Shown here piece by piece: positions 4,870 through 16,861 of a stretch of 20,322 nt of DNA. The position numbers and the translations under genes are program-made. Source of the stretch: a virus; the IMG/VR virus record IMGVR_UViG_3300046002_003546, positions 1 through 20,322 of that record; one strand, given 5' to 3'. Position 1 is the stretch's first letter; each line of letters begins with the position of its first letter. Under the pieces are notes generated by a model that saw only the letters and a program-made list of their open reading frames with translations, searched no databases and was not told the origin of the DNA.

Positions 4870-7608
4870 ATGGCAAATAGACGGTTTATAGATTTCCCAA
4901 TTGCGGCAAGTGTTGGCAACAACGATATTGTTTTAATTTGGCAAGATGGTTTAAACAAACAGACAACCAAGGCAACGCTTTTGCAAGGCTCACCTCAAAG
5001 CCTGGCTGGATTAACAGATGTTGACATTTCAGCGCTTACCAATGGTCAGATTTTGCAATACAATTCTACGACTAGCAAATGGGAGAACGTAGATAGGACC
5101 GACATTAATTTGTCAGAGTTGGGCGACGTAACAATTGTGGCGCCAGCAAACGGCCAGGTATTGGTTTACAATTCGTCAACTGGCAAATGGGAAAATTCAA
5201 GCGGCGGTTATGTGCCTTATACTGGAGCCGTTAGCACGGTTAACCTTGGCGCTCAATCTATTCTTGCTGGCTCTTTTGTAAAGGCTGGCGGAACATCTGC
5301 ACAATTCTTGAAGGCTGACGGCTCAGTTGATTCAACGGCTTACGGAACTGGTAGCGTCACCTCGGTTGCGTTAACTATGCCAACGGCGTTTAGCGTTGGT
5401 GGAAGTCCAATAACAACGGCTGGAACTTTGGCCGTTACTGGCGCAGGAACTGTTGGGCAATACATTAGAGGCGATGGCTCTTTGGCTGACTTTCCAGCAA
5501 CTACGGGCGGAGGGTCTTCGGTTAGTTATTATTTAAATGGTTCTGTTTCGCAAGGCACAATTGGTGGCGTAGCTTATAGAGAACTTAACAAAACGCCAAT
5601 ATTTGGCGCTGGAACTGACATAACCATAAGCGCTGACGGATATATTGCCTCATTTATTACAGATGCTGGCGACCCTAATAAACTACTTATTCCAGCTGGA
5701 AACTGGAACTTAGAAACCTATTTTAGTGCTTCAAGTAGTGGTGGCTCACCCTCATTTTATGTTGAGCTTTACAAGTACAATGGCTCGACATTTACTTTAA
5801 TTGCATCAAGTAGCTCAGCGCCTGAATTAATCGCTTTTGGAACAAACCTAAACCCATATTTTAGCACGTTAGCAGTTCCCGAGACAGTCCTAGCTTTAAC
5901 AGATAGGTTGGCGCTTAGATATTATGTGACGCATTCAGGTCGTACAATTACTTTACATACTGAGAATAATCATTTATGCCAAGTTATAACCACGTTTACA
6001 AGTGGCTTGACTGCATTAAACGGACTTACTAGCCAAGTGCAATATTTAACGGTTGGGACTAGCGGAACGGACTTTGCAATTTCTAGCGTAACAGATACTC
6101 ATACGTTTAATTTACCAACGGCAAGCGCGACAAATCGAGGCGCTTTAAGTTCTGCGGATTGGACAACATTTAACAATAAAACTTCCAACCTTGGAACAGT
6201 TACCTCTGTCGGCTTATCCTCAGCGACTAGCGGCGTCACTATTGGCTCAACTCCGATAACAACAAGCGGAACAATTACCTTGGCAATTGCAACGGCCAGC
6301 GGCTCGCAAAATGGCTTGTTATCTAGTACCGATTGGTCAACCTTTAACGGCAAACAAAACGCGCTTACTAACCCAGTCACGGGAACAGGAACAACTAACT
6401 ACTTACCTAAGTTTACAGGCACAAGCACGATTGGGAATTCAATAGTTAATGAAAGTTCAGGTGTTATAAATATTGCTGGTAGATTAAATGTTTTATCTAC
6501 TTATGCAAGTGATTCAGCTACTCAATCAGTTTTAAGAGATAATACTGGAGTTGCATTAAATTTTGGAGGTACTGCAAGCGGATTCAAATGGTTACAAGCT
6601 CAAGATTCAGCTGGTGCTTCTACATATTATCCAATATTGATTAACCCATACGGAGGCAACCTACTTGTTGGCACGACAACGGATGCTGGGTTTAAACTTA
6701 CAGTTGGAACTGGTGGAAAAATAGCTGCTTTTAGGTCTGGAAATGACAGAAGAGGACTATTTTATACAGATGGAGACGGCACTTGGTTAGAAAGTGATAG
6801 TACTGGGAATGACCCTTTATTGTTGAAATCCCCAGGTAGTGGTGGAAGTATTTTATTTTATACATCAACAACTGAAAAAGTCAGAATCACCTCAGGCGGA
6901 AACGTTGGGATTGGCACAGCTAGTCCAAGTGCATATTTAGATATTGTAGCTCCAGCTGGTGTATCAAATCCAACTGTATTAAGAACATATTCAAATCAAC
7001 ACGGATTAGGTTTTAAGTCTGTTATATCAGGTACATATACTACAATTGAAACCAATAATACCTCCTATCCATTAGTGTTTAATCCATCAGGCGGCAACGT
7101 GCTGATTGGAACGACAACGGATTCGGGGTATAGATTTTTTGTTCAAGCTGCAAATGCTAATTGGACATCTATTTATGATAATACTGCAAGCAGTGCTAGT
7201 GGTTTGTTAATTCGTTTAGTTGGAGGAAGCCAGGGTTTCTATTATGGTGCTTATGATGGGGGAGCATATAAATTTTATATAAATGGTTCTGGTGTTGTTC
7301 ATTCAACAAGCACCTCAATAGTTGCAATTTCTGATATTTCATTAAAAACAAATATTAGAGATTTAGACAAAGGATTAAAAGATATTTTACAATTAAAGCC
7401 AAGAAAATTTGATTGGAAAAATGGAGACGGAATAGATAATTTAGGCTTTATCGCTCAAGAAATAGAAAAAGTTTTTCCTGAGTTAGTCTCTGAATTTAAA
7501 TATAACCAATTTGAAACTAAAAAAGCATTAAAAATGGGTGATTTAATACCTTCACTTGTAAAGGCAATTCAAGAATTAAAACAAGAAATAGACACTTTAA
7601 AAAACTAG
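4870..7608 (+). CDS. Tail fibre protein with C-terminal S74 intramolecular chaperone
   Basis: A 912-aa fibre. The N-terminus (MANRRFIDFPIAASVGNNDI) resembles fibre attachment segments of Bacteroidota phages. Two repeats LTDVDISALTNGQILQYNS / LGDVTIVAPANGQVLVYNS lie near residues 45-105, followed by Gly/Ser/Thr-rich repeats (GTVTSVALT..., GTVTSVGLS...), then three GGNxxxGT modules. The last 92 residues form a Peptidase_S74 chaperone: Ser821-Asp822 and Lys826 in SDISLK fit the self-cleavage site, followed by PRKFDWKNGDG and LGFIAQEIEKVFPELV. In this family the chaperone trimerises the fibre and is then cut off before the Ser. The C-terminal third has visibly more A/T-ending codons than the N-terminal half, suggesting exchange. 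Receptor binding is inferred. Confidence 0.92.
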   Translation: MANRRFIDFPIAASVGNNDIVLIWQDGLNKQTTKATLLQGSPQSLAGLTDVDISALTNGQILQYNSTTSKWENVDRTDINLSELGDVTIVAPANGQVLVYNSSTGKWENSSGGYVPYTGAVSTVNLGAQSILAGSFVKAGGTSAQFLKADGSVDSTAYGTGSVTSVALTMPTAFSVGGSPITTAGTLAVTGAGTVGQYIRGDGSLADFPATTGGGSSVSYYLNGSVSQGTIGGVAYRELNKTPIFGAGTDITISADGYIASFITDAGDPNKLLIPAGNWNLETYFSASSSGGSPSFYVELYKYNGSTFTLIASSSSAPELIAFGTNLNPYFSTLAVPETVLALTDRLALRYYVTHSGRTITLHTENNHLCQVITTFTSGLTALNGLTSQVQYLTVGTSGTDFAISSVTDTHTFNLPTASATNRGALSSADWTTFNNKTSNLGTVTSVGLSSATSGVTIGSTPITTSGTITLAIATASGSQNGLLSSTDWSTFNGKQNALTNPVTGTGTTNYLPKFTGTSTIGNSIVNESSGVINIAGRLNVLSTYASDSATQSVLRDNTGVALNFGGTASGFKWLQAQDSAGASTYYPILINPYGGNLLVGTTTDAGFKLTVGTGGKIAAFRSGNDRRGLFYTDGDGTWLESDSTGNDPLLLKSPGSGGSILFYTSTTEKVRITSGGNVGIGTASPSAYLDIVAPAGVSNPTVLRTYSNQHGLGFKSVISGTYTTIETNNTSYPLVFNPSGGNVLIGTTTDSGYRFFVQAANANWTSIYDNTASSASGLLIRLVGGSQGFYYGAYDGGAYKFYINGSGVVHSTSTSIVAISDISLKTNIRDLDKGLKDILQLKPRKFDWKNGDGIDNLGFIAQEIEKVFPELVSEFKYNQFETKKALKMGDLIPSLVKAIQELKQEIDTLKN

Positions 7609-7611
7609 AAA

Positions 7612-7893
7612 ATGAAACCAATCCAACCAATAACAATTTGGAAAAATGGCGAAAGCCAAGAGGCTAATTTATTAAACGCCTACATTGTAAACGACAACTT
7701 AGAATCGTCTTGCTCGTTTTACTATTCTCTAAATGCAAGTGGTGAAGGAACAGAGGCAATGCCTTTGGTAATTGGCCAAACACTTGCCGATGGTAACGTG
7801 ATAATGGATGGAGAAAATTATTTGGCTTGGGACGGCGACAACGATTATGCCTTTACTTATATTGCCGAAAAATTAAACCTTACACTTATATGA
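7612..7893 (+). CDS. Small tail-associated hypothetical protein
   Basis: A 93-aa protein starting 3 nt after the fibre gene. It begins MKPIQPITIWKNGE and ends AEKLNLTLI; small proteins of this type commonly follow fibre genes in Bacteroidota phages, and I recognise the pattern but no function is established. It is acidic, has no membrane segment or signal peptide, and contains W-N-G/Y-Y-aromatic spacing suggestive of a compact beta fold. Its stop overlaps the next start as ATGA (7890-7893), so the two are probably translated together. A fibre chaperone or decoration role is only a guess from position. Confidence 0.7.
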   Translation: MKPIQPITIWKNGESQEANLLNAYIVNDNLESSCSFYYSLNASGEGTEAMPLVIGQTLADGNVIMDGENYLAWDGDNDYAFTYIAEKLNLTLI

Positions 7894-14157: not shown

Positions 14158-14366
14158 TGAAAAGCACAGACTCTCAAAACGCGCTGATTAAGGGATGGCT
14201 TTTAAACGGCTATTCAATAACCCAGCTGGAGGCACTTACCCAGTTTGGATGCTTTAGGCTGGCGGCTAGGATTGCTAACCTTAGAGATAAGGGTTTTAAT
14301 GTAGAAACCGACATGGTTACGCTAGAAAATGGAAAACGAGTTGCTCGTTATTTTGTAAAAAAATGA
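14157..14366 (+). CDS. Small helix-turn-helix protein
   Basis: The frame is open from a TTG at 14154, but the ATG at 14157 overlaps the previous stop by one base and gives 69 aa. The sequence NALIKGWLLNGYSITQLEAL then FGCFRLAARIANLRDKGFNV is the layout of a known small winged-helix/HTH domain common in phages (the HTH_39 type), ending with a beta wing (VTLENGKRVARYFVKK). It should bind DNA, probably as a regulator; the target is unknown. The stop overlaps the next gene as ATGA. Confidence 0.8.
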   Translation: MKSTDSQNALIKGWLLNGYSITQLEALTQFGCFRLAARIANLRDKGFNVETDMVTLENGKRVARYFVKK

Positions 14367-14512
14367 GAGGACGCAATTTAACAGAATACGAAAAAGAGTT
14401 AATCTTTAAGGCCTGGCAAGACCGCAAGCAAATTAAAGTCATTGCGCAAGAAATGGGCCTTTCATACGGTTGCATTTATTTTCAACTAAAGAAGCGCTCG
14501 CTAGTTGGTTAA
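14363..14512 (+). CDS. 49-aa HTH-like basic protein
   Basis: An ATGA overlap opens MRGRNLTEYEKELIFKAWQD, then IKVIAQEMGLSYGCIYFQLK, which has HTH spacing (I-A-x-E-M-G-L-S-x-G-x-I-Y), and a basic end. It is likely a minimal DNA-binding protein of the resolvase/HTH-23 kind. The gene ends just upstream of the promoter at 14525. Function unknown. Confidence 0.65.
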   Translation: MRGRNLTEYEKELIFKAWQDRKQIKVIAQEMGLSYGCIYFQLKKRSLVG

Positions 14513-14532
14513 ATCGAAAAGATTTATATTTG
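14505..14532 (+). promoter_or_regulatory. Strong Bacteroidota-type promoter
   Basis: TTG at 14505-14507 and TATATTTG at 14525-14532 (a perfect TAnnTTTG) are 17 nt apart. Transcription would start about 7 nt further, near 14539, exactly where the structured RNA begins. Confidence 0.75.
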
Positions 14533-14540
14533 TGTATTGA

Positions 14541-14630
14541 ATGGAACATTTGAGAGGTCGGAGCCTTAAATGTTTCATAGGTGAAATTCACCCAAGGCCC
14601 ATCGACTCCGACACGATAGGGCCTTTTTTA
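14541..14630 (+). ncRNA. Structured RNA leader or small RNA with kissing loops and terminator
   Basis: Three hairpins follow the promoter. P1: ATGGAACATTT (14541-14551) with AAATGTTTCAT (14568-14578), 11 pairs with one G-U, loop 14552-14567. P2: GGTGA/TCACC (14580-14592). P3: AAGGCCC-ATCG (14594-14604) with CGAT-A-GGGCCTT (14614-14625), then T-run to 14629, a complete terminator. The P1 loop contains GTCGGAG (14557-14563), the exact complement of CTCCGAC (14606-14612) in the P3 loop: a 7-bp kissing interaction. GAGCCTT (14561-14567) also resembles the terminator 3' arm and could pair with AAGGCCC. The next ATG is only 5 nt after the T-run, so the element looks like an attenuator of the replication operon, or a 90-nt small RNA. 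No known family is recognised. Confidence 0.75.
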
Positions 14631-14634
14631 TTTT

Positions 14635-15348
14635 ATGCAAGGGAAAAAATCATTTGTATTGTACACGGACCAAAGAGAAGTCTTTGAAGAGCTTACCGAC
14701 GAGCAAGCTGGCAAGTTAATTAAGCATATTTTTGGCTATGTTAACGACGAAAATCCCGAGACAGACGACAAGTTTATACGCCTGGCTTTTCTACCAATTA
14801 AGACCCAGCTTAAAAGGGACCTAAAGATTTGGGACGAAAAAAAGTACCTACGATCAGAGGCTGGTAAAAAGGGAGGCCTAGCAAAAGCTAGCAATGCTAG
14901 AAATGACCTAGCAAATCCTAGCAATGCTACAAATTCTCTAGCAAACCTAGCTGTTAATGTAAATGGTAATGTTAATGTAAATGATAATGTTAATGTAAAT
15001 GGTAATGTAAATAAACAAATAAGCGCTGGCGCTCTTTTTTCTTTGGAGGATGTCTTTAATGATTTTAAAAAAGAAAAGCCTTTAAAGCGTCCCTACTTTG
15101 AAAGAATGGCAGAGGTACATTCGACGGATTCAGATACCATTGAAAGATTGTTTAAAAAATGGGCGGTTTTAAAAGAGGGCGAAAATATGACAATCGCCAA
15201 AGCCGAAAATAGTTTTAATCTTTACATTGGCAATAATTTAAAAACCAATTACAAGCCAGCGGAAAAGTCAAAAAGCAGAAATGTTTTTGCGGATATGTAC
15301 GACGAATTAATGAGAGAAAAAGAAAAAAATAACCAACCAAACCAATGA
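14635..15348 (+). CDS. DUF6291-like replication protein with internal repeats
   Basis: A 237-aa protein. The N-terminus (SFVLYTDQREVFEELTDEQA...LAFLPIKTQLKRDLKIWDE) and RSEAGKKGGLAKAS match the DUF6291 pattern met in phage replication regions. Residues about 82-124 are low complexity: two LA-x2-SNA-x3 repeats and NVNVNDNVNVNGNVN. The rest (FNDFKKEKPLKRPYFERMAE..., LFKKWAVLKEG, FNLYIGNNLK) is helical and resembles the second half of DnaD-like initiators. A role in origin recognition and helicase loading is inferred from family, repeats and the neighbours. It follows the terminator at 14594-14629 with only 5 nt, so expression probably needs read-through. Confidence 0.75.
   Translation: MQGKKSFVLYTDQREVFEELTDEQAGKLIKHIFGYVNDENPETDDKFIRLAFLPIKTQLKRDLKIWDEKKYLRSEAGKKGGLAKASNARNDLANPSNATNSLANLAVNVNGNVNVNDNVNVNGNVNKQISAGALFSLEDVFNDFKKEKPLKRPYFERMAEVHSTDSDTIERLFKKWAVLKEGENMTIAKAENSFNLYIGNNLKTNYKPAEKSKSRNVFADMYDELMREKEKNNQPNQ
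14878..15006 (+). repeat. Iteron-like repeats inside replication gene, origin candidate
   Basis: Two blocks. Block 1: CTAGCAA at 14878, 14888, 14908, 14918 and 14938 with variants CTAGAAA (14897), CTACAAA (14927) and CTAGCTG (14947), i.e. one unit per about 10 nt and a 30-bp higher repeat (14878-14907, 14908-14937). Block 2: three 18-bp copies of GTTAATGTAAATGGTAAT (14953-14970, 14971-14988 with one change, 14989-15006). An array plus AT-rich repeats inside an initiator gene is the arrangement of lambda-type origins. Confidence 0.7.
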
Positions 15349-15974
15349 AAGAGATAATTTTAAAACATTTACAAAAAATGGAGTTTGTTTGTGGTCTAAA
15401 ACAATTTAAAGATTACAACCAAGACGAAGCAACGGAATTACTTGGATGCCTTTTGGATTTATTTTTAAAATATGGCTGGATGAACGAGGCAAGAGTTGAT
15501 TACATTTTGCAAGCTGGAATGAGGGGCCAATACGGCGATTTTTACCACGTTAACGAAAAGACGGTAAGCGTTTGGATTAATCAATATTATGCGCACCACC
15601 AAAGCCAAATCGTACAGGAGGTGCAAGCTTTAAATAACAAAGAAAAGGAGCCAACAAACGAAGAGATTGCGTACTGGATTGAGGTTGGAAAGCAAACCTT
15701 TCGAGACAATTACCAAGAGGCCAAAGAAACTGGACATTGCAAGCACCTTGCTGACTGGGGAATGTACTGGTTTAATAAGTTTCAAGAGAAAGGAATTTTA
15801 AAACCTTGGGATTTTAACGTGCAAGAAATAGAAAGCGACGTGCGTAAGGAATTGCGGTTGACAACCAGGTACGTTGAAGAGTCGACAGTTGGCGCTAAAA
15901 CCAAGAATAAGATTTGGAAATTGTTTATTTTACAGGCAATTAAGGACGGAAAAAACTTGGATCAGCTAGTATGA
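15345..15974 (+). CDS. Conserved phage protein, possibly replication accessory
   Basis: A 209-aa helical protein with ATGA overlaps on both sides (with the DUF6291-like gene and the C5 methyltransferase). Features: YGWMNEARVDYILQAGMRGQ (residues about 43-62), a region on YAHHQSQIVQEVQALNNKEK, and TGHCKHLADWGMYWFNKFQE. The position just after the initiator-like gene is that of a helicase loader in many phages, but I see no Walker motif, so it is not an AAA+ loader. No family is recognised with certainty. Confidence 0.6.
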   Translation: MKEIILKHLQKMEFVCGLKQFKDYNQDEATELLGCLLDLFLKYGWMNEARVDYILQAGMRGQYGDFYHVNEKTVSVWINQYYAHHQSQIVQEVQALNNKEKEPTNEEIAYWIEVGKQTFRDNYQEAKETGHCKHLADWGMYWFNKFQEKGILKPWDFNVQEIESDVRKELRLTTRYVEESTVGAKTKNKIWKLFILQAIKDGKNLDQLV

Positions 15975-16861
15975 GACATGGCTCTTTGTTTAGCGGAATA
16001 GGAGGTTTTGATTTAGCCTCTGAATGGATGGGATGGGAAAACGTATTCCATTGCGAATGGAATGAATTTGGACAAAAAGTTTTAAAATATTATTGGCCTG
16101 AAGCAATAACTTACAATGATATCACCAAAACAGATTTCTCTATTCACCGAGGAACAATTGACATTCTTACGGGTGGATTCCCATGCCAACCATACTCAAC
16201 CGCTGGAAAGCGACTTGGAAAACAGGACGAGCGCCATTTATGGCCCGAAATGCTTAGAGCAATTAGAGAAATTCAACCGAGCTACGTCGTGGGCGAAAAC
16301 GTTCGCGGCCTTGTTAATTGGAATGGAGGATTGGTTTTCGACGAAGTGCAAGCTGACTTGGAAGCTCAAGGCTACGAAGTCACACCGTTTTTACTTCCTG
16401 CTGCAAGCGTCGGCGCACCACATATTCGACAAAGAATTTGGTTTATTGCCTACAATGATTCCAACTCCAACTTGTATGGATTCAACCAATGCGACTGCAA
16501 CAATGAAGTCAACACAAGTAAAGGAAGGATCAATGCATTCAGTAACATTAACAAGAGCTATGGCAATGGGAATGCTACCAACTCCAATGTCATCGGATTG
16601 CGGAAACAAAGTGACAGGATTGGAAAATCAAGACTCACTAACAAAAAGAGCAAGGGAAATAACTGGCAAAACTTCCCAACTGTCGCCCCAATTTGTGATG
16701 GAGATGATGGGATTTCCGACAGATTGGACGGAATTACCTTTTCTAAATGGAGACAAGAATCAATCAAAGCAGGAGGAAACGCAGTTGTCCCACAGGTAGT
16801 TTATCAAATATTTAAAACAATAAATCAATACAATCAATTAAAAAACCAATTAACATTATGA
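15971..16861 (+). CDS. DNA (cytosine-5) methyltransferase
   Basis: A 296-aa C5 methyltransferase with motif I FSGIGGFDLA (7-16), motif IV GGFPCQPYS with catalytic C72, motif VI GENV (108-111), motif VIII RQRIWF (153-158) and motif X GNAVVPQV (269-276). Between VIII and X lies the target-recognition region, here about residues 162-231: it is Asn/Ser-rich and low complexity (NDSNSNLYGF, NCNNEVN-like, NINKSYGNGNATNSN), unlike a folded domain. The region 49-276 is also read in a second frame by another gene (16116-16799). A solitary phage enzyme protects DNA against host restriction. No restriction endonuclease is nearby. Its stop overlaps the next start as ATGA. Confidence 0.93.
   Translation: MRHGSLFSGIGGFDLASEWMGWENVFHCEWNEFGQKVLKYYWPEAITYNDITKTDFSIHRGTIDILTGGFPCQPYSTAGKRLGKQDERHLWPEMLRAIREIQPSYVVGENVRGLVNWNGGLVFDEVQADLEAQGYEVTPFLLPAASVGAPHIRQRIWFIAYNDSNSNLYGFNQCDCNNEVNTSKGRINAFSNINKSYGNGNATNSNVIGLRKQSDRIGKSRLTNKKSKGNNWQNFPTVAPICDGDDGISDRLDGITFSKWRQESIKAGGNAVVPQVVYQIFKTINQYNQLKNQLTL
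16116..16799 (+). CDS. Embedded gene in +1 frame of the C5 methyltransferase (LPTP/MMGFP-type phage protein)
   Basis: A 227-aa frame wholly inside the methyltransferase gene. It begins MISPKQISLFTEEQLTF and has GPKCLEQLEKF (43-53), WFSTKCKLTWKLKATKS (73-89), LPTPMSSD (154-161) and SQLSPQFVMEMMGFPTDW (187-204). I recognise this as a family of phage proteins found next to or fused with methyltransferases, always with repeated LPTP(T/M)xxD and a 'LNPxFVxxMMGFPxxW' signature, so the frame is not a shadow. The methyltransferase frame is low complexity exactly where this frame has its conserved middle. Function is unknown; a methylation cofactor or specificity subunit is an attractive inference. 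Confidence 0.75.
   Translation: MISPKQISLFTEEQLTFLRVDSHANHTQPLESDLENRTSAIYGPKCLEQLEKFNRATSWAKTFAALLIGMEDWFSTKCKLTWKLKATKSHRFYFLLQASAHHIFDKEFGLLPTMIPTPTCMDSTNATATMKSTQVKEGSMHSVTLTRAMAMGMLPTPMSSDCGNKVTGLENQDSLTKRAREITGKTSQLSPQFVMEMMGFPTDWTELPFLNGDKNQSKQEETQLSHR

Follow-up and report, generated by a model that had tools for sequence, protein, structure and literature searches.

Predicted kissing-terminator RNAs with covarying loops ahead of early and replication genes in Bacteroidota phages

RNA attenuators are a known kind of control element, and several described systems share features with the phage leader reported here. In pT181-like attenuators, a 5' hairpin and an intrinsic terminator are located in the leader of a replication gene, the region of the first hairpin contacts the terminator within the same molecule, and the loop specificity can be changed, resulting in orthogonal versions (PMC4878617). 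In satellite P4, RNA-RNA pairing between the CI RNA and seqA-seqC takes place within the leader of the replication operon and is tied to termination (PMC4825925). In the IncI-complex and ColE1 RNAI systems, a short loop-loop kissing interaction diversifies, sets specificity groups and controls the replication initiator (PMC10724649). The put RNA of phage HK022, an early leader with two stem-loops just past the promoter, suppresses terminators through the zinc-binding domain of the RNA polymerase beta' subunit (PMC9378689). In Gifsy-1, one prophage promoter gives rise to both the short, terminated IsrK RNA and a read-through mRNA (PMC4825925).

The window, meaning the whole stretch of DNA analysed here, is a virus record of 20,322 bases with phage genes mostly on the + strand. 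A stretch of 120 bases separates the DUF6291 gene from an HTH-like ORF of 49 codons (14363-14512) and is made up of a promoter, which overlaps the stop codon of this ORF, two hairpins and a terminator (Table 1). An earlier, sequence-only reading had described the same promoter, 11-bp hairpin, second hairpin and terminator, and their coordinates and content proved right when read from the sequence and folded. The ATG at 14635 does begin 5 nt after the end of the T-run at 14629, as it had stated. The predicted RNA has a fold energy of -35.1 kcal/mol (z = -5.0), a stability equalled by none of 200 shuffles, and its loops 1 and 3 are exact complements over 7 nt.

Table 1. Features of the leader and of the adjoining gene in the window.
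Feature	Position	Strand	Basis
Bacteroidota-type promoter: TTG (14505-14507) and TATATTTG (14525-14532)	14505-14532	+	Sequence; motif kept in homologues
Hairpin P1, 11 bp: 14541-14551 paired with 14568-14578	14541-14578	+	Fold; compensatory changes in homologues
Kissing loop 1, GUCGGAG	14557-14563	+	Exact complement of loop 3; covariation
Small hairpin P2 / linker, poorly conserved	14580-14592	+	Fold
Intrinsic terminator: hairpin 14594-14625, T-run 14624-14629	14594-14629	+	Fold; outer stem pairs covary
Kissing loop 3 (terminator loop), CUCCGAC	14606-14612	+	Sequence and covariation with loop 1
DUF6291 protein gene, probable replication protein	14635-15348	+	Pfam PF19808; ATG 5 nt past T-run
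Iteron-like direct repeats in the DUF6291 gene: two 30-nt copies; three copies, 18-nt spacing	14877-15017	+	Repeat search

The search for relatives of the DUF6291 protein yielded 79 loci, and a second scan brought further elements. The three-hairpin element is located immediately upstream of the ATG in about 66 of the 79 loci, and the TAnnTTTG/TTCG motif is retained upstream of nearly all homologous leaders. The exact complementarity of loop 1 and the terminator loop, claimed from the window (7 of 7 pairs), extends to all 85 related leaders (47 unique), in which the seven loop pairs are 100% Watson-Crick. Pairs 1, 2, 6 and 7 are invariant (GU...AG); pairs 3, 4 and 5 occur in three, two and four forms, respectively, and are compensated every time. 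In comparison, permuting the partners among leaders gave a mean pairing of 79% and a maximum of 84% (1000 permutations), and sliding the register reduced it to 12-41%. In alignment A3, changes on both sides were counted in 63 cells against 19.9 +/- 3.3 after shuffling (0 of 500 shuffles as high); this count takes in P1 and the outer terminator stem, and is conservative because three rows are one column out of register. The geometry is kept as well, with 47-51 nt from loop to loop and 10-19 nt from the start of the T-run to the ATG in the window group. The sequence-only reading had staked itself on compensatory loop changes in homologous leaders, and these leaders do covary. What evolution keeps is the complementarity and not the loop sequence.

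Distant relatives retain the layout in unrelated sequence: a promoter, a hairpin and a terminator whose loops are complementary, and then the start codon of a phage gene. About 20 further different loop pairs occur in distant phages, with the purine and pyrimidine strands swapped in some. The pair is AGGAGAGA/UCUCUCCU in L110, GGUCGAA/UUCGACC in L081 and L128, AGUCGA/UCGACU in L126, CGUCUAAC/GUUAGACG in L129, GCUCUCAC/GUGAGAGC in L133 and UAGUGG/CCACUA in L132. The phage isolate phi19:3 carries CUCUCACAA/UUGUGAGAG, with the purine and pyrimidine strands exchanged. No counterpart of P2 was seen in several distant lineages. In the P1 loops of L129 and L133, the kissing strand comes right after the 5' arm, and AUUAUA stands before the 3' arm; a similar A-rich linker is found in L081, L126 and L136, and this linker is possibly a secondary conserved feature of the P1 loop.

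The scanner used for these elements requires a TAnnTTYR promoter, a hairpin loop in which 7 nt or more can pair with the loop of a terminator hairpin further downstream, and a T-run. In the fetched loci and the window (~1.0 Mb), it returned 102 matches on the gene strand and one on the opposite strand, compared with none in dinucleotide shuffles (~3.1 Mb, all shuffles pooled). The L067:707 and L046 minus-strand matches are likely false. Genome contigs of Sphingobacterium, Mesonia and Flavobacteriaceae, 400 kb of host chromosome in total, gave no match. Across whole records, each of eight relatives of the window has exactly one copy, as do 11b, Harreka_1, phi10:1, phi19:1, Freya_8 and Gundel_1. 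Two copies with different loops are present in the L129 record, a Vicingaceae contig, phi19:3, phi13:2 and tooticki6-1. Of the phages with a copy, phi10:1, 11b, Harreka_1, tooticki6-1, Freya_8 and Gundel_1 are isolates, like phi19:3. The match in Bacteroides phage B40-8 is probable but has no good promoter, and Nekkels_1 has a complementary pair (GUCUAAC/GUUAGAC) but does not pass the strict scan. No matches were found in phiST, phi12:3, RAP44, FCL-2, 6H, B124-14, P2559S and P12024S, in the scanned parts of Colly_1, crAss001 and elemoA, or in lambda and the scanned part of HK022, where the Bacteroidota promoter rule restricts the scan. The scanner requires this promoter, and its matches speak for genomes with that promoter type. 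The window group consists of metagenomic virus contigs; the promoter type and all element-bearing isolates point to Bacteroidota hosts for it.

The position of these stem-loops, right after the promoter in phage early leaders, recalls put and nut elements, in which a folded RNA would attach to RNA polymerase, by itself or jointly with a phage protein, and make it resistant to terminators. There are two put RNAs per genome (PMC9378689), and likewise two elements in some of the phages analysed here. However, put RNAs share sequence, whereas the kissing-terminator RNAs share architecture only, and the last hairpin here is, unlike in put, a terminator with an immediate T-run. A function of this type is thus considered very unlikely. 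The put-like antiterminator and the ligand sensor had both been candidates in the sequence-only reading, and both have become less likely, as there is almost no cross-lineage sequence conservation outside the base-paired architecture.

In the confirmed copies, a start codon on the same strand lies closely 3' of the element, about 10-50 nt from the start of the T-run outside the window group. The gene that follows most often encodes a replication protein, at times behind one or two small ORFs. The replication protein of L128 and L123 has another N-terminal domain in place of the usual one, with the C-terminal domain and the leader RNA retained, which is domain swapping at the rep locus. Other downstream genes encode a methylase (L081), a product that matches no Pfam family (L129), an HNH endonuclease (tooticki6-1), YopX (phi19:3) and a Rha antirepressor (B40-8). 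None of the Rfam 15 covariance models scored above its curated threshold in the window and 124 kb of other copy-bearing phage DNA, in line with the earlier statement that no known riboswitch class matches. Purine riboswitches combine loop-loop contacts with a terminator, and a ligand-sensing riboswitch in which the loop-loop contact closes the binding pocket could in principle look similar. This reading is highly improbable, as it would have to account for the missing Rfam match, for the lack of an unpaired core conserved across lineages, and for downstream genes (replication, methylase, HNH, YopX and Rha antirepressor) with no common metabolite.

The DUF6291 gene of the window matches Pfam PF19808 (E = 1.5e-24; 86.4 bits against a gathering cut-off of 27.2). 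Relatives in elemoA and Harreka are annotated as "replication protein", and the neighbour genes are primase/helicase or similar, with the elemoA relative adjoining primase/helicase. The annotation of the relatives, the neighbour genes and the iteron-like repeats suggest that the DUF6291 protein is probably a replication protein. The repeat units in the coding sequence (CTAGCAAA..., TGTTAATGTAAATGG..., 18-nt spacing) might represent a replication origin located within the rep gene itself, comparable to that in lambda O. The predicted fold is of modest confidence (pLDDT 62) and resembles mainly other DUF6291 proteins; at this confidence, the model is weakly similar to DnaD/replisome-organiser proteins. 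Concerning a plasmid link, no DUF6291 relatives were found in PLSDB.

Some further observations were made around these loci. Proteins of similar kind and about 70 aa (e.g. MAKYDLKF...STAIKFAKTLRTEINKIK, PHROG 33177, unknown function) are encoded between the element and the replication gene in Bacteroidota phages that differ in other respects (L127, L130, L113:580-789, L114:580-792 and L136:800-1018). The gut phage record W11 (MT835491.1) has two DUF6291 domains (7459-7695 and 49178-49411), one of them in a short ORF, and the kissing-terminator element was not found in the parts of W11 scanned. In the window, an ORF of 227 aa (16116-16799, +) lies out of frame within the cytosine methylase gene (15971-16861, +) and matches PHROG 1008, "DNA methyltransferase" (E 1.3e-17). 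Frames like it are present in 79 phage records, among them those of Paenibacillus and Lacticaseibacillus phages, and together with the methylase gene this ORF looks like a real overlapping gene pair.

With moderate confidence, we read the element as a leader that acts in cis, its kissing interaction setting termination upstream of early and replication genes in Bacteroidota phages. RNA polymerase would start at the TAnnTTTG promoter and make hairpin P1, after which the emerging terminator loop would pair with the P1 loop in a kissing helix of 6-9 bp, effectively a pseudoknot. This helix is expected to form before the 3' arm of the terminator is transcribed. The contact would then fix how frequently transcription stops at the terminator, and the output would be split between a terminated RNA of ~90 nt and a read-through mRNA for the replication gene. 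As transcription reaches the terminator loop earlier than the 3' arm, the kiss could form first and either raise or lower termination. A kiss that stabilises the terminator and the RNA is favoured, because both hairpins are intact when kissed and no alternative pairing is conserved. We infer from the sequences the production of the RNA, the action of the kiss on termination, its sign (stabilising favoured) and the size of its effect on read-through.

The constant spacing, the differing loops per phage, the lack of a second copy or covarying target, and the lack of an antisense promoter point to pairing within one molecule. Copies in the same phage differ in their loops, and the window-group records have no second copy or target, so that the partner of each loop would be its own. 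A trans target within the same phage was looked for in nine records. The 7-mers of a phage's own loops show no enrichment in the rest of its record, with 0.2 sense and 0.7 complement occurrences per record compared with 1.0 and 0.5, respectively, for the loops of other types. An antisense countertranscript was rejected, as an antisense promoter of the TAnnTTTG type was found in 6 of 63 elements against 8.1 expected, which is not above chance. A classical antiterminator was rejected too: in prefix folds, on average 32% of the 15-nt 5' arm of the terminator pairs upstream, at least half of it in only 15 of 64 unique elements, and this pairing is not conserved. The hairpins are intact in the kissed form and no terminator-breaking pairing is conserved; the element is therefore not a classical strand-exchange attenuator. 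This also bears on the proposal that GAGCCTT in loop 1 imitates GGGCCTT in the terminator 3' arm. The mimicry is missing from other lineages and loop types, being private to part of one lineage, and it falls away, while the attenuator-like leader with a covarying kissing loop, ahead of a probable replication gene, stands.

The covariation itself would look no different if the element were a stable small RNA standing on its own, next to a gene that adjoins it only by chance. Such an RNA, acting in trans in the host as a decoy or regulator, with the downstream gene expressed independently, would suit an element that has its own promoter and a full terminator. Its compact fold joins both ends, and by kissing the 3' terminator the 5' hairpin would close the molecule and shield it against nucleases. 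This is an unlikely explanation, given that no unpaired sequence for meeting a host target is conserved across lineages, that no covarying target exists in the phage genome, and that the elements have a same-strand gene directly 3', which a free RNA gene does not need. The cis reading is supported by the fact that the element adjoins mostly replication genes, even where the N-terminal domain of the replication protein has been swapped. On the other hand, the short linker may put strain on a single molecule in which P1, the kiss and the terminator stack coaxially.

Among the near relatives, six discrete loop types can be distinguished. On a tree built from the first 246 bases of the rep gene, the distribution of these types over 68 rows requires 29 changes or more (mean after shuffling, 41). 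Between L014/L015 and L018, the upstream gene is 99% identical and the downstream gene 100% identical over its first 246 bases, but the RNAs between these flanks are only 73% identical, so that a cassette of ~120 bp with promoter and RNA differs. Identity is lowest locally at the RNA, falling between the promoter and the ATG, and similar cassette-like differences were seen for L025/L034, L018/L024 and others. Elements of the same type average 81% identity even where their genes are below 75%. Because the RNA differs between near-identical flanks and same-type elements stay alike despite diverged genes, the promoter and RNA are seen to move or change as a discrete allele.

Ordinary recombination combined with a relaxed sequence constraint may be enough to explain this exchange. 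The same pattern is expected, by analogy with plasmid incompatibility (PMC10724649), under diversifying selection on loop type, and a trans-acting specificity RNA is therefore kept in consideration. A purely structural cis role has no need of repeatedly exchanged discrete loop alleles, which is a hint of specificity in trans. The terminated RNA carries both loops, and two molecules of the same type could form a double kiss. Once released, it would hit nascent leaders of the same loop type on other genome copies or co-infecting phages, limiting expression of the replication gene and controlling copy number or superinfection, as plasmid antisense RNAs and the CI RNA of satellite P4 do. Besides the repeated switches on the rep-gene tree and the exchanged cassette, it counts for this model that one loop nucleotide can decide plasmid incompatibility (PMC10724649) and that P4 turns its CI RNA on its own replication leader (PMC4825925). 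However, the intramolecular partner is always present at a higher local concentration, the copies inside one phage carry different loops, the antisense promoter is not above chance, and phages could have exchanged the alleles by ordinary recombination at a conserved boundary. We regard trans action as unlikely, and just as unlikely is the idea that the loops act as specificity alleles in a self/non-self or copy-number system made of RNA only. In such a system, the terminated leader RNA would double-kiss nascent leaders of its own type on other phage genomes and silence the replication genes there, and phages would escape by cassette swap.

The cis-acting leader adds a candidate RNA switch before replication genes in phages whose gene control is little studied. 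The structured RNA class is absent from Rfam and from the literature searched, and it recurs across Bacteroidota phages, probably including one gut phage. The cultured phages that bear the element make it testable. The cassette-like exchange of covarying loops provides a natural set of orthogonal terminators, and makes it testable whether phages, like plasmids, use RNA loops to tell self from non-self. If the specificity-allele reading were true, phage populations would be split into RNA-defined immunity groups.

A search of openly accessible literature gave no description of such a kissing-terminator RNA, and within this literature the class is without earlier description. With the put RNA of HK022, the element shares only architecture: put RNAs have sequence in common and act against terminators further downstream (PMC9378689), whereas the element here ends in its own terminator, its distant copies have no shared sequence and no Rfam match was obtained in the sources scanned. 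For IsrK of Gifsy-1, loop-terminator kissing is not described, and the short RNA acts in trans on the read-through mRNA (PMC4825925). In the IncI-complex and ColE1 RNAI systems, the kissing partners are an opposite-strand antisense RNA and its target (PMC10724649), and here both loops are on the same transcript. By working principle, the nearest systems appear to be the pT181-like attenuators (PMC4878617) and the P4 CI leader system (PMC4825925). A leader hairpin and an intrinsic terminator before a replication gene are present, as in pT181. However, pT181 employs an antiterminator, which pairs with the terminator stem, as well as an antisense countertranscript (PMC4878617), whereas in the element here the contact is with the terminator loop; stem-displacing pairing is not conserved and an antisense promoter was not found. 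Because no conserved antiterminator exclusive with the terminator was found across the 64 unique elements (the mimicry in the window not being conserved), and no countertranscript promoter of the TAnnTTTG type above chance in 63 elements, it is not a member of the pT181 type. As in P4, the RNA is complementary to sites in its own replication-operon leader (loop 1 and loop 3). CI-type immunity RNA acts in trans, terminating replication transcripts and conferring immunity. The CI RNA arises by processing of a longer leader and has two separate pairing sites (PMC4825925), whereas the partners here are the loops of neighbouring hairpins in one RNA of ~90 nt, the second of which is the terminator itself.
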